Shown here: positions 8,356 through 25,948 of the stretch, piece after piece
Layout: each line of letters begins with the position of its first letter
Position numbering within the stretch: position 1 is the first letter of the stretch
NCBI GenBank assembly: GCA_014377155.1
Contig: JACMQD010000480.1
Span: forward strand, 1-28,347
Direction: 5' to 3'
DNA: 28,347 nt
Source of the DNA: Herminiimonas sp.
GTDB lineage: Bacteria > Pseudomonadota > Gammaproteobacteria > Burkholderiales > Burkholderiaceae
Made by a program: the position numbers and the translations under genes
Notes under the pieces: generated by a model
Database searches by the model: none
What the model was told of the DNA's origin: nothing
Seen by the model: only the letters and a program-made list of their open reading frames with translations

Positions 8356-8361
8356 TATAAT
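8356..8361 (+). promoter_or_regulatory. slyD: -10 element upstream of slyD
   Basis: TATAAT lies 30 bases before the slyD ATG, and AAGGA at 8380-8384 is a good ribosome binding site. The -35 region at 16-18 bases upstream is poor. A perfect TTGACA at 8308-8313 is too far away to pair with it. Confidence 0.4.
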
Positions 8362-8390
8362 TCGAATTGATATTATAGAAAGGAATCATC

Positions 8391-9088: not shown

Positions 9089-9562
9089 CTATTTTTGCGC
9101 CTTTTTCGCTTTGGTAAATGCTGTCTGCCATTGAGGGTGACCTTTCTCACCAGGTGCCAAGTCGAAACCAGGATCGCGTTTCAGGATCTTTTCGAATTGT
9201 TGCCTGCACAAGGTCTGTCTTTTAGTCACGCAGTAGCTGAATGCCATGTACTTCATCGCACGCACTTGCAAGTCATTGTCTTCCGCGCGGATTTCGTTGG
9301 GTCCGCTCACGCGTTTGATCACGCCGTTGTAATCGCCGGCATCATAAAGCACAATCACCTCGTTCATCGCGTTCTCGGACAGCGTTCGCGCTGATTTCGC
9401 GGCGACTTGCACAGGCACTTCTTTTGGCGGAACGATGGGCGCCTTGCGAGCGTTAGGAATGGTGGGCGCCGCATCGGGCCTGGTCGGCAATGTGTCGCAT
9501 CCGGCAGATAAGAATATCGCCATTGCACAGGCCACACCGAGGCCTAATTTTGATAAGTTCAT
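9089..9562 (-). CDS. tssQ: TssQ family T6SS-associated lipoprotein
   Basis: A 157-residue predicted lipoprotein with lipobox LSAGC (Cys22), the last gene of the T6SS transcription unit. After a proline-rich linker comes a TPR-like helical region with LYDAGDYNGVIKR, MKYMAFSYC and LCRQQFEKIL, ending in DLAPGEKGHPQW. This pattern is what I recall for the TssQ-type lipoproteins found in betaproteobacterial T6SS clusters. The role is not well defined; an envelope location beside the TssJLM complex is inferred. The open frame extends to 9652 into the kinase gene, but ATG 9562 begins the signal peptide, 10 bases after the kinase stop. No strong Shine-Dalgarno is visible, so it may depend on coupling. 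Confidence 0.75.
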   Translation of the reverse strand: MNLSKLGLGVACAMAIFLSAGCDTLPTRPDAAPTIPNARKAPIVPPKEVPVQVAAKSARTLSENAMNEVIVLYDAGDYNGVIKRVSGPNEIRAEDNDLQVRAMKYMAFSYCVTKRQTLCRQQFEKILKRDPGFDLAPGEKGHPQWQTAFTKAKKAQK

Positions 9563-9572
9563 TGGTAGGTTT

Positions 9573-11342
9573 CTAGTTTGTTGGAGATGAAAATTCGTGG
9601 CTAATCGTGCCCGTACTGTTTTTCGTGATTTCGATCTGGGTGCGGTGTTCAAAAAAATTGGGGTTGATAATCCTCAGTTCGTGTTTGCCTTCTGGTAATG
9701 CCAAATTTTTGAGCGGAGGACTCACCCCTTTTAGCACGCCGTCTACAATAACCTTGCCCCACGGGGTAATCGACAAGGCAACTGTACCCATCGGTTTTGG
9801 CACAGTGGTTTCGATAGCAACTGTAGTTTTAGCAAGCGACGGCGGCAAAATCTTCAGGTTCAGTGCGGTAAGCCTGGCATTGGCTTCTTTAGTATACTTC
9901 CCTGATGGATATTTCTGAATGAAATTTACCCAGTCCGTAGAGGTGGCGTCTGGATCGCCGATCAGGCTCTCCCAGTTTACCGTTTCCGCGTCAATAGTTG
10001 ATGCTGCTACCTCTGCTGCCGCCGGTGCCGGTTCTGGCTGCGCGAGCGGTGGGCTTGATGGCATAACGGGTGTCGATACTACCGCCGCCATCGATACTTC
10101 CGGTGTTTTTTCAAAATAAAAGCGGTCTGTCGTGACGAACGCAGCGGTAGTGCTGATCAGCAACACAGCCAACAAAACAATCAGGATCGGCCATAACCCG
10201 CCTTTACGCACAGTCTTATTGCCGCTTGACGGGGTTAAACCTCGGGGACCGCTGAAAAGATCTTCGACCGGTAGCGGACCTGCGACAGCTTTTTTGTTGC
10301 TCTGAATTTCCACGCCTTGGGTATGACCTTTGGACGTCGTCACCGGAAATGTATGAAGTGTTCCTGGAGTTGGTAATACGGCGATTCCGAAGTCCGGCGT
10401 TAAACCGAGAAGCTGCATGAATGCTTCGATCGACTGCGGTCGATCATCAGGTCGGATGCACAGTCCGCAATCAATCGCCGCGAGGAAAGCCTGGCTGTAG
10501 CCGCTAGGCGCTAAGTGATGCAATGGCTCGATCGGATCCTTGATCATGCGGGCGACCGACGTTGGCGGCGGCTTGCTGGTGATCGCATAGTAGATGACTG
10601 CCGATAGCGCATAAATGTCGGTCCAGGGACCCTGCTTCATCGAAGTGTCGTCGGCGTATTGCTCGATCGGCGCATAACCGGGTTTTAGAATAACGGTCAG
10701 GGCCTGGGTCGCCTCGCCGATAATCTGGCGCGCGGCGCCGAAGTCAAGCAGCACCGCTTCACCGCTGGTCTGGATCATGATGTTGTCGGGCGATACGTCT
10801 CGGTGCAAAATTTGGACCTTGTACAGTGCATCGAGCGCTGCGAGTATTGGCTTGAGCATGAATTTCAGCCAATTTTCTGTAATCAGATGCGGACTTCTTC
10901 TGACTACCTGTTTGAGCGTCTGGCCATCGTAAAAGCGCATCGCCATGTAGCCAGTCTTGTTTTCTTCCCAAAAACGATGAACCTTGATCAGAGCCGGATG
11001 ATCGAACTGCGCCAGCAGGCGGGCTTCGTTGATGAAGCTTTTCAATCCGATATCGAAGGTTTCCTGATGTCGCTGCGAACGCACTATTACACTCTTGTCG
11101 GCGCCGCGGGAGGCAAGCGCGCCGGGCATGTATTCCTTGATGGCGACCGTACGCTGAAGCGAACGATCCATCGCCAGATAGACGGTGCCGAATCCCCCTT
11201 CGCCGATGATCCCGGTGATTTCAAATTCGGCCAGCAGGGTACCCACCGGCAGGCCATGTTCAGCCGCGGTGCGCGATGGGGCATAGGCTGCGCTGTCAGG
11301 TAGTGGGTGGGGAACAGTATGTTGCTCGTTGGTCGTCGTCAT
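9573..11342 (-). CDS. T6SS-associated Ser/Thr protein kinase (PpkA-like) with periplasmic PEGA domain
   Basis: A 589-residue membrane kinase. The N-terminal kinase domain has the glycine loop GEGGFG (47-52), Lys69 in VAIKE, the catalytic loop HRDVSPDN with Asp182, DFG with Asp200, and APIEQY after the activation segment. One membrane helix lies at about 383-403. The periplasmic part has a Pro/Ala-rich linker, a short helical stretch (about 455-498) and a PEGA domain (about 518-572, ending IINPNFFEHRTQIEI). With the PP2C enzyme and the FHA protein upstream it forms the threonine phosphorylation pathway that switches T6SS activity in Pseudomonas aeruginosa. PpkA there has a different, VWA-type periplasmic region. 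All catalytic residues are present. Confidence 0.92.
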   Translation of the reverse strand: MTTTNEQHTVPHPLPDSAAYAPSRTAAEHGLPVGTLLAEFEITGIIGEGGFGTVYLAMDRSLQRTVAIKEYMPGALASRGADKSVIVRSQRHQETFDIGLKSFINEARLLAQFDHPALIKVHRFWEENKTGYMAMRFYDGQTLKQVVRRSPHLITENWLKFMLKPILAALDALYKVQILHRDVSPDNIMIQTSGEAVLLDFGAARQIIGEATQALTVILKPGYAPIEQYADDTSMKQGPWTDIYALSAVIYYAITSKPPPTSVARMIKDPIEPLHHLAPSGYSQAFLAAIDCGLCIRPDDRPQSIEAFMQLLGLTPDFGIAVLPTPGTLHTFPVTTSKGHTQGVEIQSNKKAVAGPLPVEDLFSGPRGLTPSSGNKTVRKGGLWPILIVLLAVLLISTTAAFVTTDRFYFEKTPEVSMAAVVSTPVMPSSPPLAQPEPAPAAAEVAASTIDAETVNWESLIGDPDATSTDWVNFIQKYPSGKYTKEANARLTALNLKILPPSLAKTTVAIETTVPKPMGTVALSITPWGKVIVDGVLKGVSPPLKNLALPEGKHELRIINPNFFEHRTQIEITKNSTGTISHEFSSPTN

Positions 11343-11360: not shown

Positions 11361-12158
11361 CTATCGTCGGACCGTAACTTCGTTTGGCTCGCCTATCCAA
11401 ATCGCGAAAGCGCTGAAATTATCTTGAGGATTTTTGGATTGCTCGCCCGGTGTCTCGACAAGTCTCATCATCGCGGCAAGCCAGTCATGGGCAGTCGTGG
11501 CCACAGATAAGGTCACTTCCATGTTGTGTTCGGTCACCCACTCCCAGAAACCGTCGGTACAGACGAGGAAAGTGTCGCCGTCTTCAATGTCCGTGGAACC
11601 GTGTGGGGCCACGCAGACTGTGTCGTTGTCGGCGCCGATGGCGGCATACAGCCTGCTACGTTGGGGATGCGTGCGCAGTTGGTCGGGCTTGCAGTAACCG
11701 GCGTCGACGAATTGCTGAACCAAACTATGGTCGCGGGTAATGCTGATGATCCTGTTACGCCGGAAAAGGTAGATGCGTGTGTCGCCAAGATGCGTCCAAA
11801 TCGCACGCCGTTTTTGCAGATCGATAAACAACAAGGCAACGGTGGTGGTCATGTCTTTAAAACGGCGATCGGCTGCCTGCTGTCGGCCAAGGCTGGCAGT
11901 GGCAAGTTCGATGCAAGAGTCGAGCAAGGCACTGGTGCAAGATGACGCCTTCTTGAAGCAGTCGACGATTGCTTGCGCAACGACGCGGGAGGCGATTTCG
12001 CCGCCTTCGTGCCCTCCGGCCCCATCCGCAACCACAAAACAAGCCAGTTCATTGCGTCGCGTCCAGGCGAGGTAATCCTGATTGGTACTGCGCGCGCCAA
12101 TGCCACTTTTCTGCGCGACGGTTAATGCGATTGGAGGGTGGAGCGATGAAGAAATCAT
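11361..12158 (-). CDS. PP2C-family Ser/Thr phosphatase (PppA-like)
   Basis: A 265-residue soluble phosphatase of the PP2C/PPM family, expected to reverse the action of the neighbouring kinase on T6SS substrates such as the FHA protein. Metal-binding motifs are visible: RSTNQD (23-28), VADGAGGHEGG with Asp45, LGDTR with Asp126, TDGFWEWV with Asp202, and the C-terminal QDNFSAF. In P. aeruginosa PppA switches the H1-T6SS off. Its ATG overlaps the tagH stop by the four bases ATGA, so the two are probably translated together. The kinase gene follows after 18 bases. Confidence 0.92.
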   Translation of the reverse strand: MISSSLHPPIALTVAQKSGIGARSTNQDYLAWTRRNELACFVVADGAGGHEGGEIASRVVAQAIVDCFKKASSCTSALLDSCIELATASLGRQQAADRRFKDMTTTVALLFIDLQKRRAIWTHLGDTRIYLFRRNRIISITRDHSLVQQFVDAGYCKPDQLRTHPQRSRLYAAIGADNDTVCVAPHGSTDIEDGDTFLVCTDGFWEWVTEHNMEVTLSVATTAHDWLAAMMRLVETPGEQSKNPQDNFSAFAIWIGEPNEVTVRR

Positions 12159-14014
12159 TGTGTGCTTTCCTGGTTGAAGCGCTCGATTTCTTCTTCGTAA
12201 GCGGCCAGAAACGCTTTGCCAAACAAGGTTTGAAAGTCATCTTGCGCTTCCGCTTGAATATTCCGGAACAGTTTGCCGTAGTGATCCCACATGCGTGCCT
12301 TGCGGGATACCGGCAGTACGGCATCGAGGATCGAATGTCCGCTGATGTGTTGGTCCAGTCGTGCCGGGTCGAAGCGTTGCAGTACATCGTCGAGTGCGGC
12401 GCGCATGCCCGCAACGACACCGATCTGGTGCGCGCGCAGATCCCGGTAGGCGTCGTCCATCGCGGCCACGGGTTCCATAAAGCCTGGGATTTTTCTGCCG
12501 AACATCTGCATCAAGGCCGTCTGTCCGTCTGGCAAAAATTTGAGCGGATTATTGTTCCGGACGACGATCATCGTGACGTCTGCACGGACTTCACGTTTGA
12601 CAAATGCGCGCGAGGAAATGAGTTCTACCGTACCTTGTGTCGCCGACGCTAAAATCTGTCCGATCAATCGCATCAGATCTGGCGTCAGTTCCTGTGTGAT
12701 CGTATCTTCAGGAAGATCGGCGCCGTCCAAAAACGCCTGTAACAGCCGACGTCGGTCATTTGCGGCGACATCTGCGACGCCTCTCAGGTCGGGTCGCATC
12801 GGGGACGTTGGCTGTTCGCCCTTCTTCGGTAGCGTGGACTCGACCTGTACAACGACAGGCGTTGATGTTGCATACGGTGGCGCTGTGGCTGCATGGTTTC
12901 GATCTGGCACAGCAGCGGGGTTACCGAATGACGCCGACACCGATGTTTCCGTTTCCATTACATGAGAGTTGGCGAACGCGCCGTCGCTCACTTGGAGCCG
13001 ACCGATCGGCATCAGGAATGGCGTATCGAGTTCCTGCACATCGTTGCGCATGGCTACGCTTTGTGCGGAAGTCGGTGCAGGTGCCGACAGGATCGATGAT
13101 TCGCCAAACAGTTGCAGGGGATCGACACTCGCCGTATCGGCGTCGGCCTGTAGCAAGGTTTCTACGGGCGTGTCGGCGGCGGTTTCGATCAGCGAACCGA
13201 GCATACGGTCCTCGAAGGACGCAAGAGTTACGGCGTTATGAGCCAGCGCTCCGAGCGGATCATCGCTGTTGCGCACCGCGTACGACGGCATTGCGAAAGG
13301 ATCAAAGTTATCGGGAATGAGGGCTGCGCCGTGGGCCGTGACAGCAGGGCCGTGTACGGCATCCTCGAGAAGATCGTCGAAACCGATAGATTGTGCATAC
13401 GGGCCCGATGCATGTGCATGGACTGGCGGCAATGGCAGAGAATATGCGCTTGCTGCTGCTACCGATTCGGAGATCACTTCAGTGGCAGACGTGGACACTG
13501 CTTGCGGTATAAAATCCTGGCCGAGACCACCAGACAGACCGGACAACGCTAAACCGTTGGATAATATGCCATCGAAATTTGAGTCTACTGCGTTCCCGGT
13601 TGCACTGTTTGGTGGTTCGGCGCATTGCTCGATCGGCGGCGCGGATTGTGCGATCACATTCGCAAATACGGCTTCGGAGTGTTCGAAAGCATCGGACTGA
13701 AGGACCGCCTCCGCGAGCAGTACGAACAATCCGACAATTATTTGATCTCCGGGCGCGAACGCCATTTCCTGGTTGGCTGCGACTTCGTGGCCGCTTACCA
13801 TCAGCGAGTTGGCTTGGCTGAGGTTGACGATCGTATGGCGTCGCCCATCGCTGAATACGGATGCTTGCAAACGGGAGACATGGCGCTTCGGGTCCGGCAA
13901 TACCAAGTGGTTGTCAGCGCCTCGTCCAAGTGTCCCGCCCGCGGTGCCGAACACGGCCGACAACGGTTGTTGCGGCACTTCATTGTTAAAGGAAACAACG
14001 GTAAGTTGGATCAT
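12155..14014 (-). CDS. tagH: T6SS-associated FHA domain protein TagH (Fha)
   Basis: A 619-residue cytoplasmic scaffold. The N-terminal FHA domain (about 1-100) has GTLGRGADNHLVLP, the phosphothreonine-contacting HVSRLQA, and an Asn in SQANSLMVSG. A long low-complexity middle part (about 105-415), rich in Ala, Ser and Pro, looks disordered and is probably where phosphorylation occurs. The C-terminal 200 residues, from RRRLLQAFLDGADLPED through NPLKFLPDGQTALMQM, match the conserved T6SS-Fha domain. In P. aeruginosa Fha1 binds its own phosphorylated form to trigger secretion. It starts 39 bases after the LpoA-like gene and overlaps the phosphatase gene by ATGA. Confidence 0.93.
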   Translation of the reverse strand: MIQLTVVSFNNEVPQQPLSAVFGTAGGTLGRGADNHLVLPDPKRHVSRLQASVFSDGRRHTIVNLSQANSLMVSGHEVAANQEMAFAPGDQIIVGLFVLLAEAVLQSDAFEHSEAVFANVIAQSAPPIEQCAEPPNSATGNAVDSNFDGILSNGLALSGLSGGLGQDFIPQAVSTSATEVISESVAAASAYSLPLPPVHAHASGPYAQSIGFDDLLEDAVHGPAVTAHGAALIPDNFDPFAMPSYAVRNSDDPLGALAHNAVTLASFEDRMLGSLIETAADTPVETLLQADADTASVDPLQLFGESSILSAPAPTSAQSVAMRNDVQELDTPFLMPIGRLQVSDGAFANSHVMETETSVSASFGNPAAVPDRNHAATAPPYATSTPVVVQVESTLPKKGEQPTSPMRPDLRGVADVAANDRRRLLQAFLDGADLPEDTITQELTPDLMRLIGQILASATQGTVELISSRAFVKREVRADVTMIVVRNNNPLKFLPDGQTALMQMFGRKIPGFMEPVAAMDDAYRDLRAHQIGVVAGMRAALDDVLQRFDPARLDQHISGHSILDAVLPVSRKARMWDHYGKLFRNIQAEAQDDFQTLFGKAFLAAYEEEIERFNQESTQ

Positions 14015-14053
14015 CGGACAATCAATCTGGCAAGTGGTTGAATGGGTGTGGCA

Positions 14054-15922
14054 TCAATTTCGCTTTTGTCGAACTTCTGCGAGTCGGTCGAAATCCGATG
14101 CGTGGTATCGGGCAAGGTTAGCCTCCTGGAACGACACTACCTGCAAATCACGCTCGACTAACCGACCGCGCGTAACCCGCAAGGTGCCGGTGGCGCCGTC
14201 CATCACCGGACGATTAAAGCGCACTTCTTCATTGAGCAGTAATACAGATAGTCGGCAGACGTCGACCCCGAGCCAGTACAGACGCAAGGTCACTGCGTCA
14301 CGAGAGATTGCTGGTGGAACCCGGGAGGCTTCCTTGCTCGCCCTCACCAGGGACGGACTGTCGACGAAATAGACATGCCGGCTTTTGTCCAGCTTGGCGG
14401 CCTCGGGCGACAAAGTATTTAAGGTCGACGTGCCGAACACATTCCAGCTAGCGGGCATCATATTGATGGCGGGCAGTGCATTGCGAAAATCGGCGGCCAC
14501 GAAAACCATGGTGCTGGCGGCGTTGCCGGTGGTAGTTGCGCGCGTGATAGCTGCAGCATCATTGGTGGAGACAGAAACTTTGACGGAGCGCTTGAGCTGC
14601 GTCCATTCCCTTGCAAAAGCTTCTGCCGAGCGAAGATCGAGTGGACTGCTGCCCCTGAGAACGATTGCTTCGGTAAATCCTTTGTCCCGCGCTGCGCGTG
14701 CGATCAGTTTGGCTTCGTGGGTGATCGGCAAGCCGAACTGGTACAGGTTGACCGGAACGGTCTCGGTATCGATGACGTTGAGGGCCACTGTCGGCACCGA
14801 CAGCAGCTTGCGCTTGGCCAGTATCTTCAACGCTGAACGCGGCAGCGGCCCGACGATGAGGATAGCGCCGTTGTCGACCGCGGTATTGTAGGCATTGATG
14901 GTAGACTCGGCCTTTTCATCGGTCTCATATAGCTTGACCGGGAAAGGTCCGGGGGTCTTGGCCTGGACAGACTGGAAACCTTCCCATACCGCGCGCGCGG
15001 AAGCCCCTAGTTCCTTGGATCGGGTAGGCAGGATCAGCGCCAGGTGGCGCATTCGCGCCTTGTCGGCATTGTTCAGATCGAGCAGGCGCTGGTCCAGGAT
15101 GACGTGGCTGGGGTAACGCTTGCGCCACGCCGCAATGGCCTTGGCCTTTGCGCGTCCCGGCGGCATGCCGTCTTTGGACAACAGCGCCAGATCGATCCAT
15201 CCGCGTTCTGCATTGTCGCCGGTCTGCTCCCGAAAAGATTTCAGCGCTGGCACCGATTGGACAGCGAGAAGCTGCCAGATCGATTCCTGATGCGCCGACA
15301 ACTCTCTGGTCGACGCCAGAAATTCTTCCGCCCGGATATGCGCATGAAGCGAGCGCAGCACATACGACTGTCCGGTGTCTAGTCCGGCACTTGCTTTGGT
15401 GCTGTCGCGCAGTGCAAGCGTGGGTTCGGAAAGGCGATATGCTTCGGCCATGGTCGACCAATACACGCCTTTTCCGGCGGAACCCAACTCGCGCAGACGC
15501 GTATCGGTCAAGCCTGTCATTGCCTTGAACACATTGCCATCGGCCAGCGCCAGTTGTGCGCCTAGCAGCGCCCCATACGCGCTCGATGGCGCCGAAGCCT
15601 TGAGTTTTTTCAGCATGTCGAGTGCGTTCGGAACGTCCTGCACCGAAAGATAGAGTTGCGCCGCATCGAAAAGATAACGCGCGCGGTCCGCTGCCATGGA
15701 TTGCCGATGAACGTCGACGAACGCATGTGCGGCGTCGATTACGCGACCGTCATCCTGAAGTTGCAGGGCATCCTCGACTGTACTCAACTTCTTTGGCACG
15801 GCGACCACTTGCACAGCCTGTTTAACCGGCGGTTGCGGGGTCGAACACGCCGACATCAGGAAGGCAAGCAGCAGCGCAATCGCAGCAGTACCTTTGGCGC
15901 GGCCGGACGGACGAATAGGCAT
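14054..15922 (-). CDS. LpoA-like lipoprotein (penicillin-binding protein activator family) inside the T6SS cluster
   Basis: A 622-residue predicted outer membrane lipoprotein with lipobox MSAC (Cys26). Residues about 48-285 are helical and TPR-like. From about 292 to 600 there is a periplasmic binding-protein fold with the LppC/LpoA signatures HLALILP, AILIVGPL, VPTVALN, YQFGLPITHEAKLIARAA and AEAFAREWTQL. E. coli LpoA has the same plan and activates peptidoglycan synthase PBP1A from the outer membrane. Start 15922 is preferred over ATG 15949 because GGAA lies 7 bases before it and the signal peptide begins there. Flanked by tssG (39 bases) and tagH (39 bases) on the same strand, it is part of the operon. 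A wall-synthesis role during T6SS assembly is inferred. Confidence 0.85.
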   Translation of the reverse strand: MPIRPSGRAKGTAAIALLLAFLMSACSTPQPPVKQAVQVVAVPKKLSTVEDALQLQDDGRVIDAAHAFVDVHRQSMAADRARYLFDAAQLYLSVQDVPNALDMLKKLKASAPSSAYGALLGAQLALADGNVFKAMTGLTDTRLRELGSAGKGVYWSTMAEAYRLSEPTLALRDSTKASAGLDTGQSYVLRSLHAHIRAEEFLASTRELSAHQESIWQLLAVQSVPALKSFREQTGDNAERGWIDLALLSKDGMPPGRAKAKAIAAWRKRYPSHVILDQRLLDLNNADKARMRHLALILPTRSKELGASARAVWEGFQSVQAKTPGPFPVKLYETDEKAESTINAYNTAVDNGAILIVGPLPRSALKILAKRKLLSVPTVALNVIDTETVPVNLYQFGLPITHEAKLIARAARDKGFTEAIVLRGSSPLDLRSAEAFAREWTQLKRSVKVSVSTNDAAAITRATTTGNAASTMVFVAADFRNALPAINMMPASWNVFGTSTLNTLSPEAAKLDKSRHVYFVDSPSLVRASKEASRVPPAISRDAVTLRLYWLGVDVCRLSVLLLNEEVRFNRPVMDGATGTLRVTRGRLVERDLQVVSFQEANLARYHASDFDRLAEVRQKRN

Positions 15923-15961
15923 GGTAATTTCCAGGTTGATCGGACGCATGGCCCGCTTTCG

Positions 15962-17029
15962 TTATAAATCGCAGCCGAGCACCAGATCGGCTGCGTCCAG
16001 TTCATTTCGATGCGTGTCTAGCCAGGATGTCCATCCCAGCTGCGCACCGCAGCCCAGACGCGCTGAAAAAACATCATTTTTTTGCAACACCAGACGGAGG
16101 TCGATCAGTAGTTCCAGTCCGAGATAGGTTCTGAGCCAGGCGGCAATCCGTGCGGCGCCCGCACAGCCGGGTAGTAAAGATTGGTAGCGCGCCAGCGACA
16201 TCGGCCCCATCGTGATGCGAACCTTGTGTTGGGCATCCAGCACCTGTTCACCGATGATCGCGGTCTCACCAAGGCGATTATTGCCCCGGGAGGACGCGAG
16301 ACGGGTTTGCTCGGAGCGCGCCAGCGCAATCCAGTGCGAAACAAACTCGACGATCGACACCGGTACCGAGAAGTAACTGGACAAAATGGCGGCAAGCCCT
16401 TCGGGATTGCGCGTCTGGCGCGCAAGATGCTGCGCATGGAACAGCTTGGCGTGATCCGAGATGTCATCACGCGCGCGCAGCGTCGACTGGCCATAGCCGA
16501 TCAAGCTGGCCGCATGTCTTGTAAACCGATCGTCATCCGGCCGATCCATGCTTACCGTGGACTGGGTATCGGCCCACGCCCGATAGAACAACAGGATCAA
16601 ACGGTGATGGAAGATATCGGCAAAGTGTGCGAGTGTCGGATCGTTAAATCGGCGCAGGCGGTCGCGCGCATATTCGGTCAGATGCAGCGGCATGGGGCCA
16701 TTTGGGCCGAACAGTCCGAAGCCCAGAATCGACAGCCGGGGGCGCGCCTCACCGGCTGCCTGTGTTATACCCGCAATGGTCGAGGCGGCAAATGCCAGTG
16801 ACGGCTCCTGTGCCAGCCGCACGGGCTCGAAATGGGGGCGCGGACTTCTCCCAAGCAGCGGCTTCGCGTCGTCGCGACTGTCGATCCAGCGCAGGACCGA
16901 AAACAGGTCTGCCTTGTGCGGATCCTCGAGCAGATGCTGCCAGAACGGCTCCGCGAAAAAAGTTGCGGTCGCCCGTTGATCCGGTGTGACCGAGCGCTGA
17001 TCTGTCGATGCAGGCAAGGTGTTCGTCAT
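15962..17029 (-). CDS. tssG: T6SS baseplate subunit TssG
   Basis: A 355-residue baseplate protein that binds two TssF copies in the wedge complex. The family signatures FSVLRWIDSR, RLSILGFGLFGPNGPMPLHLTEYAR and the HHRLILLFYRAW segment are all present, followed by the typical VPVSIVEFVSHWI. The open frame reaches 17062, but ATG 17029 overlaps the tssF stop by ATGA and starts just before the conserved N-terminus. I take that as the true start. The gene ends 39 bases before the LpoA-like gene. Confidence 0.96.
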   Translation of the reverse strand: MTNTLPASTDQRSVTPDQRATATFFAEPFWQHLLEDPHKADLFSVLRWIDSRDDAKPLLGRSPRPHFEPVRLAQEPSLAFAASTIAGITQAAGEARPRLSILGFGLFGPNGPMPLHLTEYARDRLRRFNDPTLAHFADIFHHRLILLFYRAWADTQSTVSMDRPDDDRFTRHAASLIGYGQSTLRARDDISDHAKLFHAQHLARQTRNPEGLAAILSSYFSVPVSIVEFVSHWIALARSEQTRLASSRGNNRLGETAIIGEQVLDAQHKVRITMGPMSLARYQSLLPGCAGAARIAAWLRTYLGLELLIDLRLVLQKNDVFSARLGCGAQLGWTSWLDTHRNELDAADLVLGCDL

Positions 17030-18906
17030 GCGATCGGCCTGTTTCCGATACGCGGTCGCCAACTTCCGATTACCCCCCGCTGCAAAGAACGCAAGGTCGT
17101 TTCGGTGAACACATTGACCGACACATGCCGCGCCAAAAACTGCTCCAGAATCGCGCCGAAAATATAGGGACTGCTACCGGCAAACAGCGATTCGTCGACG
17201 GTCAACTCGATACCGACGCCGCGTCCGAATACGATCGGCCCTCGCTGCGGAAGCCTTCGCGTGATGCCGCTCGATCGCATGCCCTGCAACGCACCGACCT
17301 GATGGCTTAGGGCCGAATCCGATAGCGCCGCGTAGAGGGATAACAGTTCGCGCAACGCCGTCGCACCGCCTGCCTGTTCGGCGTTATCGATGTCGGTGAG
17401 GGATAGGTAATTCAGGTTGAGATGACTGATCAGACGCCAAGTGATCGCCTCTTCGGCCATCGCTGGCGAGGGTGCCGACGGCCCCCTGACGATACGAATA
17501 CCGTCGATTGGCGCTGACGCTGTCAGGGCCAGGTCACGGTCGGAGCCAATCGGCATCAACAGAGGCAGATCGCGATTGGTGCACATGGTATCGACAGATA
17601 AATGGCGCATTCCACTTCGGTATGGTGCGTCGCGGCAGTCGACCAGCGACAGGAAGACCTCGCTGCCGATATAAGCAGTGCGGGTTCCGGCGCGCCTGGC
17701 GGAATCGGAAAGCACACGCGGTTCGCGGCGTGTGGAAAAGTAGGCTGCGCCGGACTGGGCCGCATTGTCGAAAGAAGAATAAAACGGACGGAATGTCTGG
17801 TCGCCCGTCGCGTCTTCGTGATGGCCGACGATACCGGTGACGGCATGCACTTCGAAGTCCAGCGGACGCGTACGGTCTACCACGATATGGTGGTCATGAT
17901 TGTCGGCGCCAAGCGCCAAGCGGTCGCCGCGCTTTGGAAAGAGGTTGACGACAGGCGTACAAAACAGCGCCAGTTGCTTTTGATCGACCAAATTCTCAAG
18001 CTTGCCGACCGGGCAGTCGAGCAGGATCGTCAAGTCGAGGATATCGCCACTGGCCTGTCGGACCATCGTTTGCAGGCCCTCCAACCGGAAAAACTGGTAC
18101 CGCGTCGAAAACGCAAAGTACTCGTGCAGCAAGCGGTAGCCCTGGAAGCTGCGAGTGTCATACGGCAGCATCGCTTGCTGCGCATCGAAGCCCTCTGGCT
18201 GGATAGAGCATGCATCGCGAAACTCGATCCAGCGAGACGGTCGCTCTGCGCTGGTGCCGGTGAAGCCGAGCGCATGCGCAAAGATGTGTTCATACAACTG
18301 CGACGCGATACCATCACTGCCCGACAGAAAAAAAGAAAGACTGTCGAGGTCGAGTGCGGCTAGCTTCGCGGCACCGATGGCTTTCAGTCGAATCCTGATC
18401 GCACCTTTGACGTCCCGCTCCAACGGTAGCGCGGCAAGTGGCAGATCGGCCGGCGCGCCGGTGCAGCTCACATCGACAATTTCCAGCGGCCACAGGGTAA
18501 GCGCATGTGCGGTTCGAAATTCACAGGCGGTCTGCTCACCTTTTGCCACGCCGCCCATCATCGAGGAATGCCTGGGAATCGTGAAGCCTGCGCCGACGCT
18601 GCCTTGCGGCATGCGTGGTTTGACCTGGGCTATGGCCATGGCAGGTGTGGGCGCCAGGTAATTGGGATATAAGATGTCGAGCAGTCGCTGTGAAAAACGC
18701 GGGAACTCGGCATCCATCTTGAGCTGGATGCGCGCCGTCAAGAAGCTGAAACCTTCCAGCAGTCGTTCGACATAGGGATCGGCGACATCGATCTCATGTA
18801 TTCCTAGACGGCCAGCGATCTTGGGATACTGTTGCGCGAATTCCTGGCCCATCTCGCGCAGGTAGGCGAGCTCGCTGTTGTAATACTGAAGCAGACGCGG
18901 GTTCAT
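17026..18906 (-). CDS. tssF: T6SS baseplate subunit TssF
   Basis: A 626-residue protein, the usual TssF size. The beginning NPRLLQYYNSELAYLREM followed by FAQQYPKIAGRL is diagnostic, as are DPYVERLLEGFSFLTARIQLKMD and the LYPNYLAPTPAMAI stretch. TssF and TssG form the gp6/gp7-like wedge of the T6SS baseplate and connect it to TssK. The gene overlaps tssE upstream and tssG downstream by ATGA, so the three baseplate proteins are probably made in a fixed ratio. Confidence 0.97.
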   Translation of the reverse strand: MNPRLLQYYNSELAYLREMGQEFAQQYPKIAGRLGIHEIDVADPYVERLLEGFSFLTARIQLKMDAEFPRFSQRLLDILYPNYLAPTPAMAIAQVKPRMPQGSVGAGFTIPRHSSMMGGVAKGEQTACEFRTAHALTLWPLEIVDVSCTGAPADLPLAALPLERDVKGAIRIRLKAIGAAKLAALDLDSLSFFLSGSDGIASQLYEHIFAHALGFTGTSAERPSRWIEFRDACSIQPEGFDAQQAMLPYDTRSFQGYRLLHEYFAFSTRYQFFRLEGLQTMVRQASGDILDLTILLDCPVGKLENLVDQKQLALFCTPVVNLFPKRGDRLALGADNHDHHIVVDRTRPLDFEVHAVTGIVGHHEDATGDQTFRPFYSSFDNAAQSGAAYFSTRREPRVLSDSARRAGTRTAYIGSEVFLSLVDCRDAPYRSGMRHLSVDTMCTNRDLPLLMPIGSDRDLALTASAPIDGIRIVRGPSAPSPAMAEEAITWRLISHLNLNYLSLTDIDNAEQAGGATALRELLSLYAALSDSALSHQVGALQGMRSSGITRRLPQRGPIVFGRGVGIELTVDESLFAGSSPYIFGAILEQFLARHVSVNVFTETTLRSLQRGVIGSWRPRIGNRPIA

Positions 18907-19445
18907 GTACCACTCACAGACTGGTCTTGTACCAACATTTCGCCGCTTTCCAGATCGAGATTGGTTCGCAAGAGAAGTTCAAGCGGATAGGGCTGCGCCC
19001 ACAGTTGGCAGCGAATCTGGAATGCCAGCACGTTGTGATGATTGATGAGGTCGTCGGTCGCCAGCGCGCTGACTTGCAACGTGTCTTTCAGGATTCTCGG
19101 CTCGAAATCCAGAATTGCGCGGCACATGTTCTGCTCCAGCACGGTCCAGTCGATTTCCGATACGCGCAGGCCCGACAAGGGGCGCATGCCGAAATTGACG
19201 ACCGATCGAATTGCGTGTGGATATTGATGGAGCGTTTGGTCGGTTTCGCCGTTGGCGGTATTGAGCAGCCATGCCAGGTCGCGCAAGACCGATTGCCGCA
19301 GTTCCGCGCGTGACATCGCGCGTCGGTTTGCCGACTCGACATCGCTGTGCGGTTCGTTATCGGTCAGGCGGTCCAACAGCGATGGCTGCAGACGTGCGGT
19401 AGCGCGCGGGTTGGTGGTTTTTGGCTGATGTGGACTGCGGGACAT
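18903..19445 (-). CDS. tssE: T6SS baseplate subunit TssE (gp25-like)
   Basis: A 180-residue protein of the GPW/gp25 family, homologous to phage T4 gp25, which starts sheath polymerisation at the baseplate. Visible features are LLDRLTDNEP near the N-terminus, RAELRQSVLRDLAWLLNT, SVVNFGMRPLSG, and a C-terminal strand region ending in QLWAQPYPLELLLRTNLDLESG. The N-terminal 20 residues are basic and probably flexible. It begins 12 bases after the tagJ stop and overlaps tssF by ATGA. Confidence 0.94.
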   Translation of the reverse strand: MSRSPHQPKTTNPRATARLQPSLLDRLTDNEPHSDVESANRRAMSRAELRQSVLRDLAWLLNTANGETDQTLHQYPHAIRSVVNFGMRPLSGLRVSEIDWTVLEQNMCRAILDFEPRILKDTLQVSALATDDLINHHNVLAFQIRCQLWAQPYPLELLLRTNLDLESGEMLVQDQSVSGT

Positions 19446-19457
19446 GGCTGCGCGCTG

Positions 19458-20267
19458 TTAGGCCGGTATATCGAAAAGGATGCGACGCACGTCGAGCAGC
19501 GCATGTTCGCCTTGGTCAGTAGCGAGCATGCGCTGGCCGCTGCCTGCAAAGCCGTCGCCGTCGAAGTCTATCCACCGTGTTGCGCGCGCCATCCGAACAT
19601 CGTCGTCCGCCGCTTCAGAACCTGGATAGCGGACAGGAATCAATGCCATCTGTTCGCCTTTTTCGATAAATGTCAGCCTTGCCGGCAGCCACACCAGATC
19701 GCGCAGATCCTGCGGCATGTCGAGTTCGATGCAACGAAGCTGACTGATCGCAATCCAGCAATAACGCGTACCGATAATGGCTTCGATAATTGGACCGAGC
19801 CGCGAATCGGCGTCGCAAAGCCAATCAAACCGTTGGCCATCGAGCGATCCGCCCGTGGCGGGCGCCTGTTCCAGCGCATTGTCACGCAGGCATCTGGCGC
19901 CGGCGCTATCGCCGGCTGCAAGCAGGTGCTGCGCCTCGATCATCATCGAAAGCCAAGAGGGCGGCACACCGATGATATGCGGCTTGCGCCTTCCGGTGAA
20001 AACTTCGGCACGGTCTCGCTCGCAATTCAGTGCTTCGCGATAGATCGTCGCCATCGACAACGCACCGGCATCGAGCTGTGCGCACAGCTGCAGTTGTGTC
20101 CGCGCACGCTCCCATTGCCCTGTCAGGCATAGCAGTTGAAACAGATAGACCCGTAAATCGGCCTTGCCGGGCTGCGTACGGATTGCAGCCTGGACCTTGT
20201 CGAGTCGCAGGGCGAGCGGGATCGCCGGGCATCGGATGCTATCGGGATTTGTAAGGGATAAGGTCAT
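19458..20267 (-). CDS. tagJ: T6SS accessory protein TagJ (ImpE family)
   Basis: A 269-residue protein of the ImpE/TagJ family. The N-terminal helical repeat holds LRVYLFQLLCLTGQWERARTQL, and the later segment ends with VRRILFDI. In P. aeruginosa TagJ binds the sheath protein TssB and can recruit the ClpV ATPase, but it is not essential in all systems. The frame is open upstream to 20444, but ATG 20267 overlaps the tagF stop by ATGA and begins the conserved part. It should not be read as TssA, which has a different ImpA domain and is not seen in this window. Confidence 0.88.
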   Translation of the reverse strand: MTLSLTNPDSIRCPAIPLALRLDKVQAAIRTQPGKADLRVYLFQLLCLTGQWERARTQLQLCAQLDAGALSMATIYREALNCERDRAEVFTGRRKPHIIGVPPSWLSMMIEAQHLLAAGDSAGARCLRDNALEQAPATGGSLDGQRFDWLCDADSRLGPIIEAIIGTRYCWIAISQLRCIELDMPQDLRDLVWLPARLTFIEKGEQMALIPVRYPGSEAADDDVRMARATRWIDFDGDGFAGSGQRMLATDQGEHALLDVRRILFDIPA

Positions 20268-21046
20268 TTTTTCCAGTCTGTATGCCGTGCGTGAAGTGCG
20301 GTTTGGGAAAACAGAGCATTGAACAAGGTCTTGTTGAGGCCGCCGCTGTGGGTCATTGCACGCATGGGTCCGCCGCCCGACTGGTTGCACCACCAATAGC
20401 TGGTACAGCCCATCGTCACGTTCGATATCTGCAAGCGCGGCCACGGGACCGGTGATGGGGACCGTGCCGATAGCCCCGCATTTTGATTGTTTTCGCAGTC
20501 GGCATTGAGTACGCTGAAAATGTCGCCGCTGCAGGTGGATGTGCTAGAGCCTGTTGCGGAATCGTCAATCGCCGGGATGCGGTTATCAGCAGCGGCAAAT
20601 AGCTGCTCGAGCTGATCGATATTGGGATTTCGATGTGTCAGGTCGGCGATGATCGACTCGTGATCGGCATACAGGCCAGAAAGCTGCTCAAGGCAAATGT
20701 TTTGCTGCGCAGGTAGATCCGACTGTCTGAAGATCGTGAACGGGAATTGGCGACCGACGCGGTCGCTGCTGGGTGCGATGGTACCGATCATCGTTTGGCC
20801 GCATACCGCCGGTGGCAGCACAAAATTCCATGTCGCCGCGCGACGCACGTGGATAGACTGCGGTCCATGGGCAGGCGCTGCAATTGCAGGCGACAGCAAT
20901 GTCGCTTCATAGAGGCAGGTGCGCAACCAATTATCCCAGATGAAAATCGTCTGCTGGGGCACGCGCCGGCTGACAAAATCACCGGCGCTCGGGATCTTTC
21001 CATAGAAACCGGCAACCGAACCGAAATACTCGGATCGGGCATTCAT
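20264..21046 (-). CDS. tagF: T6SS-associated protein TagF (ImpM family)
   Basis: A 260-residue cytoplasmic protein. GFYGKIPSAGDFVSRR, IFIWDNWLRTCL and the later GRQFPFTI are hallmarks of TagF/ImpM. In P. aeruginosa and Agrobacterium TagF represses T6SS activity post-translationally, partly through the FHA protein, so here it belongs to the same control layer as the kinase, phosphatase and TagH. Start 21046 is preferred to 21061 because it overlaps the tssM stop by ATGA. The C-terminal third is less conserved, with a Ser/Thr-rich piece near residues 160-180. Confidence 0.9.
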   Translation of the reverse strand: MNARSEYFGSVAGFYGKIPSAGDFVSRRVPQQTIFIWDNWLRTCLYEATLLSPAIAAPAHGPQSIHVRRAATWNFVLPPAVCGQTMIGTIAPSSDRVGRQFPFTIFRQSDLPAQQNICLEQLSGLYADHESIIADLTHRNPNIDQLEQLFAAADNRIPAIDDSATGSSTSTCSGDIFSVLNADCENNQNAGLSARSPSPVPWPRLQISNVTMGCTSYWWCNQSGGGPMRAMTHSGGLNKTLFNALFSQTALHARHTDWKK

Positions 21047-24000
21047 AGGCTGGAGGGGCACTTGAAATCCATCAGCTCGCGCAACTGGAAGGGGTTGTAA
21101 ACACTATTGGTGGTGATTTCAAACTCAATTTTTCTTCCTTCGACATTGAGTAGTGCAAAAAACCGCTCGGGAACCGCCGTCGCGCGGATCTGCGCCCGGT
21201 CGAACAATCTGTGCAAGGCCCATGGTCCGTCACCGGCGTACCCGGTACCGCCGGTGATCTGGGGGGTAAGCTGGATGCGTACCTGTTGACCGCCACGCGG
21301 CCCCGGCCAGGTAATAGGCGTCGGAACCTGCGGTCCGTGTGCATACTTCAGCAATTGACCGTCGACATCGAGTGTCATTTGCGTGATTGACGTGTCCATC
21401 TCCGCTGGTTTTATTTCCAGTTTCAGAGTCGGCATGCGGCCGCCATGGCGGAAATACACGTCTCGGATCACCGCTGCACGCTGGAACGCAACCAGTCCGC
21501 CGCTGCCACCGATTACGGACCCGTCGATGCCCTTCTTGAAGCTCCATGGCTTGGTCGACAGATCCACCATCGTGCTCAGGTTTTTTTGGAAGAATTCATC
21601 CATCAAGCCACCGGGCGCGAACATCCTGGCAAAATCGTCGGCAGTCACATCCTTGGCTGATTCGCTGGCAAACGGATAGCGGTTGCCCAGCGCCTTGCGG
21701 CAAAACTGGCCAACCGTTGCGTCGAGCGTGGCGTCGAGTCCGGTAATGACCACACCGGATATTTGGGCCGAGCCGTTGGTGGCCAGTTCGGTCAGCATGT
21801 CGCGCATCGGCGACGGCAGGCGCGCGGCATCCGCCCGCATCCTGGTGATGACGTCGGTAGCCGGTGGCGCAACGCCAGCCTTGAGTGCGGCATCGGTGGC
21901 GCTTAGTGCAATGTAGAGTTCATTGACCAGCTGCAGCGTCGCGTCGATCGGTGCCGCACCGCCGGTGTTTCCCTGGGCCAGTTTGCGTAGTGATTCGAAG
22001 CGGGTGTCGACCATCAGTTCGGGTCGCTTTTGCGACACCTGCGTCACTGGCGTGCTGGAACCGATCACTTTTTCAAGATCGTCCTTGTAGGCCTTGATGC
22101 GGTCGCTGGCCTTGTCAGCAAGTGATGGCGTTTTCTCGGTTTCTCTTACGAGTGTTGTTTCTTTGGAGGCGGCGCGAATGAACGACGACAATGGTGAGTC
22201 GGGAGCCGACAGTATCCGCGCCGACTCGATGCTTTTTTGTAACGATGCCACGCGAATCAGGCGTACATCTGCCAGGAATTCTTCCCAGATCTTGATGTAA
22301 TCTGCCAGGTAAAGTCGCCGCACAGCATTGCCAAGGTCATTGTTGACAACGTCGTTCATCTTTTTTCTGGCGGTATTTGCCGACGTTATGACGTTTCCGA
22401 TTACCCACGACTCCTGGTCGCCAAGCGATGTCGCCACACTACTAACCTGCTTGTTGAACAGGTCGTGATAGCCGCTGTAAGTGAACAAGCCCGGCACGCC
22501 GCGCGTGAGTGCCTGTCCGCTGGGCCGGTAGAATACGAGCAAGGCTTGTGAACCGGCGGCTGCAGCAACCGTGAAATCGGGCGGCTCCTTGCCATTGAGG
22601 AGGCGCTTGATGCGGCTGTACACCCGTTGAGCGGGCGTGAATTGCTGCAACCGATCGCGCACCCGAGTTACCAGTGCATCGTCCTTCGGAAAGGGCGACG
22701 CCACTATGCGCCCTTCCAGCAAGCTCGACAGATGGCCATCCAGCGATTCCAGGGTCGCTTTAGACGTATCCGGCGGTAGGTGCTTGCGCAAGCTGATCAA
22801 TACCCACTGCTTGAGCCCATCGCTATTGAAGCGCGCCGGTTCATGCAGCATCAGGTACGCCTTGAGGGCTTCGAACGAATACTCGAGATTGTCGGCGGGC
22901 GCCTGTTGCAAGTCGCGTTCGACGCCTCGTGCGATCGCCGGCAGCAGCGCATCTTCAAGCATGCGTTGGTAGACCGCATTGCCCGACGATGCGATCTTGG
23001 CGCCCTGAAACAGGCCGAATCGGTACGAATAGGGCGCTGCACCAACGACGAACGCGTCGTTGTCGGCAAGATCTCGCGCATCGTCGAGTATCGGCATGAG
23101 CTTCAGAATGTCATCGATCTCACGCCGCGAACCGGCGTCGAGCACTTTTGACAGGGCGACGATCCTTGCCTGAACCGTATCGATGAACGTGCGGTTATTG
23201 GCAAAGCTGATTGTCCACGCGGCAAGCGTGGCCACGAGCAGGAGTATGACCCCCGAATAGCCGGCGTAGCGCAGAATCCGTGTATTGCGTTCCCATTGGA
23301 AATTGCGCGCCGCCAAGTAGCATTCCGGGAAAATGACATTTTGCAGCAAGCACTGCAGGAAATAACTTTTGCCTGTGCCCGCCCTGGCGGCTACATGCGG
23401 CCGGCTGTTGGTCTTGAATTTCCTTTGCATGGCGCCTAGCACGCGATCGAGCGGCGCGCCTTCCTGGGTGCCGCTGGTAAAATAGATGCCACGCAAAAGT
23501 GGCGCTTCCTCGAACCTTGATGCACTGAAAACCGGTTCGATCATTTGTTCCAGCACATCCTGCAATCCCGCCAACTGCTGCGGCATCGAATACATCAATG
23601 CGCGTTTGATCAAGTCCTGTTCTGCCAGCAGCGCCTCCGGCAAGCCGGCATTGATGCGATTGAGCAGTAGCGCGAATTCGGTTTGGACCCATGGCGCGAA
23701 ATCTGGCGCGGCATGTAGACCGTCGTCATAGGGCGCGGTAAATCCCCACACCTGATCGCGTTCGTCCTTCGATAGACGAGAAAAATACTCGTTGAAGCCC
23801 GCCAGCAGATCAGTCTTGGTCACCAATACATAAACGGGAAAATTAATTCCCAGAATGGCGTGTAACTCCGCCAAGCGCTTTTTCAGCGACACGGCATGCG
23901 CATGGCGTTCCGGTGCGGACATTGTCAAAAGATCGGACACGCTGATGGTCATCATCACGCCGTTAATGGGCTGCCTGGGTCGGAATTTGCGCAGCAGGGC

Positions 24001-24648
24001 GAGGAAGCCTTCCCATTCCGTTCGATCGGCCTGAGCGTCGCTCTCTTGCGTCGTATAGCGCCCGGCGGTATCGAGCATGATGGCTTCATTGGTAAACCAC
24101 CAGTCGCAATTGCGCGTGCCGCCAACGCCACGAATGGCGCTACGGCCGAACTGATCGGCCAGCGGGAAGTTCAGGCCCGAATTAATTAGCGCAGTGGTTT
24201 TACCCGATCCGGGCGCACCTATGAACATGTACCACGGTAGCTGGTACATATACTGTTTCGACATCCGTGAAAAAAATCCGCTGCCTCCTGTTGCAGCGAA
24301 CCGGGTTTTTTTGAGGATGCCCAGCGCGTCGTCGAAACGTCCTTGCAGTTCGGCCATCTGTGCGGTACTGACGCCGTCGGTGGCGGCGCCGGGTGAAGGA
24401 CGTTGTGCCAACTGGTTGAGCAGTCGTGCATTCATGTTTTTTTCGCGCCACAACCTGATCATCAACTTGAGCAGCCAGATTGTAAAAATAATGCAAATCA
24501 CGGTGGTCCGGGTCACTTCGGCGTCAAGTGGCTTGTAGGGTCCGATCGCCACGAGCGGGCCGACGAACCAGATCAGCGCTGCGAGGCAAACCAGCCCCAT
24601 TAGGATGAGCAGGCTCTTGTTGAACACAACGCGGAAAAGGTAGCTCAT
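21043..24648 (-). CDS. tssM: T6SS membrane complex subunit TssM (IcmF)
   Basis: A 1201-residue inner membrane protein that forms, with TssL and TssJ, the trans-envelope channel. Two N-terminal helices (about 12-34 and 46-66) precede a cytoplasmic NTPase-like domain with an intact Walker A, GAPGSGKT at 144-151. A third helix near residues 443-465 leads into the large periplasmic part, which reaches TssJ. The C-terminal end has the usual beta-rich domain. An intact Walker A is not universal in TssM. The open frame continues upstream to 24945 over tssL, but GAGGA 7 bases before ATG 24648 and the immediate first helix fix the start. The tssL stop overlaps this ribosome binding site, 10 bases ahead. 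Confidence 0.97.
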   Translation of the reverse strand: MSYLFRVVFNKSLLILMGLVCLAALIWFVGPLVAIGPYKPLDAEVTRTTVICIIFTIWLLKLMIRLWREKNMNARLLNQLAQRPSPGAATDGVSTAQMAELQGRFDDALGILKKTRFAATGGSGFFSRMSKQYMYQLPWYMFIGAPGSGKTTALINSGLNFPLADQFGRSAIRGVGGTRNCDWWFTNEAIMLDTAGRYTTQESDAQADRTEWEGFLALLRKFRPRQPINGVMMTISVSDLLTMSAPERHAHAVSLKKRLAELHAILGINFPVYVLVTKTDLLAGFNEYFSRLSKDERDQVWGFTAPYDDGLHAAPDFAPWVQTEFALLLNRINAGLPEALLAEQDLIKRALMYSMPQQLAGLQDVLEQMIEPVFSASRFEEAPLLRGIYFTSGTQEGAPLDRVLGAMQRKFKTNSRPHVAARAGTGKSYFLQCLLQNVIFPECYLAARNFQWERNTRILRYAGYSGVILLLVATLAAWTISFANNRTFIDTVQARIVALSKVLDAGSRREIDDILKLMPILDDARDLADNDAFVVGAAPYSYRFGLFQGAKIASSGNAVYQRMLEDALLPAIARGVERDLQQAPADNLEYSFEALKAYLMLHEPARFNSDGLKQWVLISLRKHLPPDTSKATLESLDGHLSSLLEGRIVASPFPKDDALVTRVRDRLQQFTPAQRVYSRIKRLLNGKEPPDFTVAAAAGSQALLVFYRPSGQALTRGVPGLFTYSGYHDLFNKQVSSVATSLGDQESWVIGNVITSANTARKKMNDVVNNDLGNAVRRLYLADYIKIWEEFLADVRLIRVASLQKSIESARILSAPDSPLSSFIRAASKETTLVRETEKTPSLADKASDRIKAYKDDLEKVIGSSTPVTQVSQKRPELMVDTRFESLRKLAQGNTGGAAPIDATLQLVNELYIALSATDAALKAGVAPPATDVITRMRADAARLPSPMRDMLTELATNGSAQISGVVITGLDATLDATVGQFCRKALGNRYPFASESAKDVTADDFARMFAPGGLMDEFFQKNLSTMVDLSTKPWSFKKGIDGSVIGGSGGLVAFQRAAVIRDVYFRHGGRMPTLKLEIKPAEMDTSITQMTLDVDGQLLKYAHGPQVPTPITWPGPRGGQQVRIQLTPQITGGTGYAGDGPWALHRLFDRAQIRATAVPERFFALLNVEGRKIEFEITTNSVYNPFQLRELMDFKCPSSL

Positions 24649-24658
24649 CGTGTTGTCC

Positions 24659-25948
24659 TCATTGCGCCGGGGTGGTCGCGGCAACCATAAGGGTAATCTC
24701 GACACGGCGATTTTTCGCACGATCGGGCGCGCTGTCGTTGCCGGCAATCGGGTCGTCCGCGCCGCGCCCTGTGGATTTAATGCGCTGTGGCGTGCCAAGC
24801 CGAGCAGCGAGCAGCGAGGCGACAGCATCCGCGCGGGCCTGGGACAAGTGCCAATTCGAGGGAAATTTAAGCGTACGAATGGGCGTGCTGTCGGTGTACC
24901 CGTTGACGATAACGTCACCTTGCACCTGCTTGAGCGCGTCGCCAATGCGGGCTAGTACCGGTACATAGCGATCCATGACGGCAGTCGCTGCAGGTGCGAA
25001 CAAACCGTCGCCGCGCAATGTGACCACGCTTCGGTCTGATTCGTCACGCACGGCGACCAGTCCTTCGCGTATTTCGGGTTCGAAAAACCTGGCGAGGCGT
25101 TGTGGTGCCGTTTTCTTGTCTGCCGGCTGTGCCGCTACGACGACCGGCGGTAATCGAAGCTTGTTGATCGCCGCTGACAGATCGTCCGATATCCGTTCAA
25201 GCTTGAACGACAAAAAAAGATAAATAGCCAGCCCGACGGCGCCGGCCACGCAAGCGGCGACCCAGACCGGCAGGAACATCCACGATTTTTGTTTGCGCGC
25301 TTCGGCACCTTTCCAGTGTGGAGACAACGGTGCACCGAGTGACTCACGTGTCGATGTCAGGATGGTCAATAGCCTCTGCTTGACGGTTTCGAGCTGAGGA
25401 CGGCCGTTATCGACGATCCTGAAACGGCCTTCGAATCCCATGGCCATGCAGTAGTACATCAGTTCCAGCAAATCGTGATGCAACTGCGGATTTTGCGCCA
25501 GCTTGGAAAGCAGCTGAAAAAATTTTTCACCGCCCGAGGTCTCGTTGTGAAACGTCACCAGCAGACTATGCCGGGACCAGGCGCCAGAACCACCCCAAGG
25601 CGTTTGTGCCGCCGTTTCGTCGAGTACGGTGCACAGGCAGTAGCGCGCGCCGATGATGGTTTCGGTACCGATGCCCGACTGTCTCGCCTGTATCTCGAAG
25701 CTCTTGATCTGCTCGATCAGAAATTCCCGCAACGCAGGTGGGTTGGGGTGACGCGCTGTCACGCGAATTTGTGGTACCAGGTCGAGAATTCGGTTGGCCG
25801 CAGTCACAAGCGGATTGGCTCCGCTGATGACTTCCGGCAGGTCAGCTGCGACGTCCGGCAACTGCGCATGGTCGTGAACCGGCATGGATGCGAAACGCAT
25901 CGCATCAGGATCGACCACCGCTTGGGCAAAGGGATTGAGGTCATTCAT
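24659..25948 (-). CDS. tssL: T6SS membrane complex subunit TssL (DotU) with C-terminal OmpA domain
   Basis: A 429-residue extended TssL. The cytoplasmic DotU domain (about 40-205) contains RYCLCTVLDETAAQTPWG, SLLVTFHNETSGGEKFFQLL and MYYCMAMGFEGRFR. One membrane helix lies at 224-246. The periplasmic domain (about 310-420) is OmpA-like, with VNGYTDSTPI, NWHLSQARADAV and NRRVEI, the pattern that binds peptidoglycan. This anchors the T6SS complex to the cell wall from within TssL. In systems with a short TssL, a separate protein such as TagL does this. It lies 18 bases after tssK. Confidence 0.97.
   Translation of the reverse strand: MNDLNPFAQAVVDPDAMRFASMPVHDHAQLPDVAADLPEVISGANPLVTAANRILDLVPQIRVTARHPNPPALREFLIEQIKSFEIQARQSGIGTETIIGARYCLCTVLDETAAQTPWGGSGAWSRHSLLVTFHNETSGGEKFFQLLSKLAQNPQLHHDLLELMYYCMAMGFEGRFRIVDNGRPQLETVKQRLLTILTSTRESLGAPLSPHWKGAEARKQKSWMFLPVWVAACVAGAVGLAIYLFLSFKLERISDDLSAAINKLRLPPVVVAAQPADKKTAPQRLARFFEPEIREGLVAVRDESDRSVVTLRGDGLFAPAATAVMDRYVPVLARIGDALKQVQGDVIVNGYTDSTPIRTLKFPSNWHLSQARADAVASLLAARLGTPQRIKSTGRGADDPIAGNDSAPDRAKNRRVEITLMVAATTPAQ

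Follow-up and report, generated by a model that had tools for sequence, protein, structure and literature searches.

The DNA analyzed here, 28,347 nucleotides of contig JACMQD010000480.1 from Herminiimonas sp. (the window), carries a type VI secretion system (T6SS) cluster that includes a gene for a lipoprotein of the LppC/LpoA family. We refer to the gene as lpoT and to its product as LpoT, our own label for this T6SS-type LpoA. The Burkholderiaceae metagenome-assembled genome G001 carries both an lpoT gene in a T6SS locus and a separate housekeeping LpoA gene, which shows that LpoT is an LpoA paralogue residing in T6SS loci. In the window and in G001, lpoT goes with the genes for an FHA protein and a kinase, and we tentatively suggest that LpoT couples T6SS sites to peptidoglycan synthesis.

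An LpoA-type lipoprotein in a T6SS cluster

The lpoT open reading frame (ORF; positions 14054..15922, minus strand) encodes 622 residues and ends in a stop codon, with an alternative start nine codons upstream, at 15949. Its product matches the Pfam LppC family (PF04348) at 128.7 bits (E = 3.6e-37; cut-off 28.8). This result confirms that the gene encodes an LppC/LpoA-family lipoprotein, as a preliminary description made from the letters alone had supposed when it called for such a profile search. Sequence searches of the PDB retrieved LpoA structures as well, the best being the Chromobacterium protein (4pyr, E = 1.1e-26) and full-length Haemophilus influenzae LpoA (5kcn, E = 2.7e-14), followed by weaker matches to 3ckm, 6dr3 and 2mhk; a search of NCBIfam with LpoT of the window (P0001) returned no family at E ≤ 0.001. 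The lipobox cysteine, C26, is conserved at 90% or more in an alignment of 15 LpoT proteins, as read from the alignment without a signal-peptide program; one of the 15, P0015, is a fragment without the N-terminal part. Existing automatic names include outer membrane PBP1 activator LpoA for P0012 and P0015 (JGI) and penicillin-binding protein activator for P0014 (NCBI).

A structure model of LpoT, built from an alignment with 38 of 43 relatives (five close relatives of kept rows were omitted), reached a pLDDT of 87.2 and a pTM of 0.82. Structure comparison identified both LpoA domains in the model, namely a TPR-like helical N-domain (residues ~49–291) and a C-domain with the type I periplasmic-binding-protein fold (residues ~292–607), matching the architecture first predicted for this ORF. 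Its position on the same strand between tssG and tagH was likewise described correctly, with gaps of 39 bases on the tssG side (15923–15961) and the tagH side (14015–14053). Near lpoT we found no promoter-like site, and terminator-like matches numbered 3, near the mean of 2.5 in shuffles; we therefore do not argue for a transcription unit.

A paralogue beside the housekeeping LpoA

G001 has two LppC genes, with the reservation that genes may be missing or misplaced in a metagenome-assembled genome. One lies in a T6SS locus (C35) and encodes an LpoT 46% identical to that of the window. The other (P0044) encodes a 415-residue protein consisting of the C-domain only and lies with rsmI on one side and UPF0102-, SIS- and BON-family genes, which we take to be yraN, diaA and dolP, on the other. 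We compared 30 housekeeping loci, that of G001 and those of the 29 top scorers among the 95 other matching genomes; this choice is not a random draw, and protein lengths assume the longest possible starts. The gene rsmI stands beside LppC in all 30, and yraN is labelled in 29. The lpoT genes of the window and of G001 C35 lie in T6SS loci and not at this rsmI/yraN/diaA/dolP site, so their location is not that of a housekeeping LpoA orthologue. We also looked at six of the ten top BamC matches to the window, and each carries an LppC gene at the rsmI/yraN site (the match in G024 is partial). The second, housekeeping LpoA near rsmI/yraN that the preliminary description had proposed looking for is thus found in G001 and in six BamC-chosen relatives of the window. 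The accompanying idea of an LpoA copy dedicated to T6SS is supported as well, in that a second lineage, G001, also carries the gene in a T6SS locus.

The housekeeping proteins differ from LpoT in layout, their C-domain starting by residue 170 in 29 of the 30; the exception, from G113, starts its C-domain at 227 and has an N-domain. This 547-residue protein (C14; L008 / L081), encoded at the rsmI–yraN site, groups with P0016 outside the rest. A 617-residue protein encoded beside rsmI in G107 (L082:2556-4409) gives a weak match to the LpoT C-domain (31 bits).

A tree of 72 C-domains comprised 14 LpoT proteins (P0001–P0014, omitting the fragment P0015), 30 housekeeping proteins and 28 other LppC proteins, leaving out the duplicates L005, L081 and L083 and the weakly matching L082. 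A branch with 100/100 support sets the LpoT proteins apart, and the G001 housekeeping copy falls elsewhere, away from LpoT. In a single MAFFT alignment of 15 LpoT, 30 housekeeping and 20 other rows, 73 C-domain columns are conserved in at least 80% of the 30 housekeeping proteins. LpoT keeps 48 of these and changes 25, which departs from the pattern expected of a housekeeping orthologue; many of the changed columns lie at 514–533, where Asp521 and Pro523 are retained. A further 33 positions are specific to LpoT (at least 95% in LpoT and less than 10% elsewhere).

LpoT is rare in what could be searched. The relative search, which scored the 7995 best candidates only, retrieved 43 proteins; fourteen of these form the LpoT set, at 44–66% identity, and the next relatives drop to 28%. 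We call LpoT rare because a scan of genome_contigs (84,980 species, one genome each) yielded a single member, that of G001, and because G001 alone gave a match across the whole profile among 148 genomes (G001 and its relatives), 96 of which have LppC-type matches at E ≤ 1e-5. The contig scan used two short peptide patterns, which may miss diverged members, and its 19 pattern matches included 1 relative. A scan of viral contigs gave 26 pattern matches and 0 relatives, and further overlapping draws at E ≤ 1e-52 returned only G001 (1/399, 1/3 and 1/392). The longest contigs on which the relatives occur measure 13.8–237 kb.

The genes that accompany lpoT

LpoT goes with the FHA/kinase module and not with tssG. 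Downstream of lpoT on the minus strand, the window carries tagH (12155..14014), stp (11361..12158), stk (9573..11342) and tssQ (9089..9652). TagH is an FHA protein with a T6SS_FHA_C domain (TIGR03354, 226.4 bits), and its 619 residues include a long stretch between the two domains. The product of stp is a PP2C-type Ser/Thr phosphatase, PppA-like (NF033484, 155.3 bits, below the equivalog cut-off of 230), that of stk is a PpkA-like Ser/Thr kinase with a C-terminal PEGA domain, and TssQ is a T6SS-associated lipoprotein of the TssQ family (NF038027, 110.3 bits, cut-off 65). The order lpoT–tagH–stp–stk–tssQ is the same in G001. The upstream neighbour of lpoT in the window, the baseplate gene tssG (15962..17062, minus strand; profile match), lies ~30 kb from lpoT in G001, where ~13.5 kb of the same contig separate tssQ from the start of a tssJ-K-L-M-tagF-ImpE-tssE-F-G run. 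This interval contains a ClpV-like gene and, on the opposite strand, sheath and ImpA_N genes. Because tagH adjoins lpoT in both arrangements and tssG in only one, we tie LpoT to the FHA/kinase module and reject tssG as a partner by neighbourhood. Of the placement between tssG and the FHA gene, whose conservation had been singled out for checking, the tagH–stp–stk–tssQ side is kept in G001 and the tssG side is not. At the place after tssG that lpoT takes in the window, G001 has a GGDEF gene (L040:14730-16490).

Among the G001 systems, the lpoT-bearing one is closest to the window in its core genes. Window TssF is 64.5% identical to that of the lpoT-bearing system of G001 and 56.2% and 55.0% identical to the other two TssF proteins of that genome, and window TagH also scores best against the lpoT-bearing system. 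Database fields point to further linked cases. Four of the 14 LpoT relatives agree exactly with a TagH homologue in longest contig, contig number and source set (longest contigs of 39845, 20362, 16270 and 237281 bases), and two of the four (39845 and 237281) agree in these fields with a TssG homologue as well. Such matching counts as positive evidence only, the value of G001 itself (80245) being missing from the TagH and TssG lists, and it suggests that four more LpoT relatives share a contig with TagH. At least two lineages thus have lpoT in a T6SS cluster, with two loci read and four more probable from these fields, and we reject a chance neighbourhood in one strain.

TagH of LpoT-linked systems, read or presumed from the fields, has 519–777 residues; in several lpoT-less tagH–stp–stk–tssQ modules it has ~380–430. 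A module without lpoT, hcp–tagH–stp–stk, occurs at C11 (L058) of G001, the same genome as the lpoT-bearing module. At L046:7009-10837 of G126, tandem kinase genes, a weak tssQ match, tagH and stp follow one another, and this kinase–tssQ–tagH order resembles the ppkA–tssW–fha order of Acidovorax citrulli.

The T6SS genes of the window run on the minus strand from tssJ (27981) to tssQ (9089). Upstream of tssG they comprise the lipoprotein gene tssJ (27436..27981; TIGR03352), tssK (25967..27301), tssL (24659..25948), tssM (21043..24945), tagF (20264..21061), an ImpE-family gene (19458..20444; PF07024), which is presumably tagJ, the gp25-like tssE (18903..19445) and tssF (17026..18906), the remaining genes being assigned by profile matches. 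As listed, the tssM ORF overlaps tssL and the ImpE-family ORF overlaps tagF, and both genes probably start at lower coordinates than listed. TssL ends in an OmpA domain, which the preliminary description had read as a clue to a wall-aware system. The domain is present as described, but it also occurs in 5/5 TssL proteins checked from T6SS loci where no lpoT was seen, and we reject it as a special sign of such a system. Flanking the cluster, at 7079-8939, are genes for a JmjC/ROXA-like oxygenase and an FKBP-type isomerase. A search of the window for tRNA genes found none, and a plasmid search with the window trpS gave one match, at 24% coverage, and no origin.

A possible role in wall synthesis and its counterparts

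The LpoA of E. coli, a lipoprotein of elongated shape, can span the distance from the outer membrane to PBP1A, and its C-domain stimulates cross-linking by PBP1A (PMC4111904 and PMC4632607, in the portions covered). On this model, we cautiously favor, at rather less than even confidence, a role for LpoT as an outer-membrane-anchored coupler between T6SS sites and a PBP1A-type synthase. LpoT would be anchored in the outer membrane as a lipoprotein and would present its C-domain at the inner membrane to such a synthase, a class A penicillin-binding protein (aPBP) with an OB domain; it could also, or instead, face the membrane complex of the T6SS and the kinase's periplasmic portion. The steps from anchoring to any partner are ones that we infer. 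LpoT would in this way tie local peptidoglycan synthesis to the places that the kinase–TagH pathway selects or licenses for a T6SS. The wall could then be restored around the trans-envelope complex or after it, or the T6SS could be assembled at points of ongoing wall growth. lpoT lies beside the kinase, phosphatase and FHA genes presumed to license firing, a position suggesting that wall building and firing may be coupled. That a dedicated synthase activator wired to the kinase–FHA module links firing to the attacker's own wall building is a more doubtful proposition, although one we would not call far-fetched. A partner of the required type is available, because G001 encodes at least two aPBPs with an OB-like domain (three of its five transglycosylase-domain places were scanned). 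Another G001 protein (L092:4015-7092) matches a transglycosylase weakly and a transpeptidase in part; its length of 1025 residues is far from what is usual for an aPBP.

Several observations weigh against coupling to a synthase. The stem of LpoT in the C-domain tree measures 2.11 changes per column, compared to a median end branch of 0.46; its great length makes the attachment point of LpoT unreliable, and a change of function is one event that can produce such a stem. LpoT has lost the loop that follows Asp521-x-Pro523 and that reads Trp ... Asp-His-Pro-Ala-Val in LpoA of betaproteobacteria: it lacks the Trp, which every housekeeping row not gapped at that column has, and it does not keep the later Asp, His, Ala and Val. 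Because the C-domain has diverged this strongly, in stem length as in conserved columns, activation of PBP1A by LpoT cannot be assumed. No PBP gene was found in the scanned parts of the G001 locus or among the scanned window genes. Within G001, LppC was found at only one of three TssF-bearing loci. Across the 148 genomes there are 42 FHA places in 32, and lpoT was seen at G001 C35 alone among the 41 examined, several of which lie near contig ends, where upstream genes may be unseen, and two of which (L073 and L074) have an unlabelled FHA gene. The nearest upstream ORF in seven lpoT-less FHA loci encodes an aminotransferase (twice), a valyl-tRNA synthetase, a topoisomerase, a Sua5-like protein, Hcp or a protein without a family. 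These counts indicate that lpoT is dispensable for T6SS in general. Finally, the best single segments for the window stk score 500 bits in C25, 451 in C11 and 445 in the lpoT-bearing C35, and those for stp score 245 and 221 bits in the other G001 systems versus 202 in the lpoT-bearing one; joint descent of the whole module is therefore not established.

Nearly level with synthase coupling, in our judgement, is the possibility that LpoT, derived from LpoA, serves the kinase pathway as a scaffold or sensor, one that would set where and when the T6SS assembles and would activate no PBP. By analogy it may then resemble A. citrulli TssW or Pseudomonas aeruginosa TagQ/TagR, as an outer-membrane component reaching the kinase and the membrane complex. 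Such a role would account for the common neighbours tagH–stp–stk–tssQ and the likely presence of tagH on four more contigs, and the long stem, the 33 LpoT-specific residues and the lost housekeeping loop are consistent with it. The module, however, already includes the TssQ lipoprotein, which may fill the outer-membrane slot, and LpoT keeps both LpoA domains and most of the conserved columns (48/73). Family membership and fold would equally suit a second general LpoA, a redundant activator of wall synthesis merely sharing a T6SS transcript, and the co-directional 39-base spacing could be hitch-hiking. We consider this explanation improbable, given that lpoT adjoins tagH in two lineages despite rearrangement and probably shares a contig with it in four further cases, that LpoT forms a separate, diverged group and that no full-length LpoT-type match was found away from T6SS in 147 relatives of G001. 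It is least probable of all that LpoT replaces a housekeeping LpoA lost from the window's own genome: G001 retains both LppC genes, and the six BamC-chosen relatives have theirs at the rsmI/yraN site, including the partial match in G024.

We regard LpoT as a paralogue from a known family whose setting we did not find described; the papers surveyed on LpoA/LppC/PBP1A and type VI secretion, a selection with few subscription papers, described no T6SS-linked LpoA. The T6SS membrane complex is ~18 nm wide and the pores of the wall measure ~2 nm; how the complex gets through is a recognized question, and the answers offered in the part of the review covered here are wall-cutting enzymes (PMC10433429). 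A dedicated LpoA paralogue would bring wall synthesis into this picture; alternatively, it would be a case of a synthase activator recruited to position the T6SS or to serve it as a sensor.

Compared to LpoA/LppC proteins at large (E. coli and H. influenzae LpoA, YraM), LpoT shares the two-domain architecture, the lipoprotein cysteine and matches in profile and fold, whereas its place in a T6SS cluster and not at rsmI/yraN, its own long-stem group and the lost C-domain loop set it apart. Its C-domain is 29% identical over 291 residues to that of a betaproteobacterial housekeeping LpoA (Chromobacterium, 4pyr), a type that, like P0044 of G001, usually consists of the C-domain only (29/30), while LpoT has a full N-domain. 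TssW of A. citrulli is an outer-membrane protein encoded between ppkA and fha that has PpkA, TssM and TssJ as interaction partners and determines the place of T6SS assembly (PMC12607579, in the portion covered). Compared by this description only, TssW, with its TssW–PpkA–Fha axis, and LpoT are both outer-membrane components encoded beside the kinase and FHA genes; from gene order, the tssQ of the window looks a likelier counterpart of TssW than does LpoT. Other T6SS accessories act on the producer's own wall, as outlined in the available parts of PMC10433429 and PMC10564176: TagX and the recruited MltE cut the wall, to which TagV is proposed to bind. LpoT instead resembles an activator of synthesis and, if the synthase-activator reading is true, would be the synthesis-side counterpart of the wall-cutting TagX and MltE.
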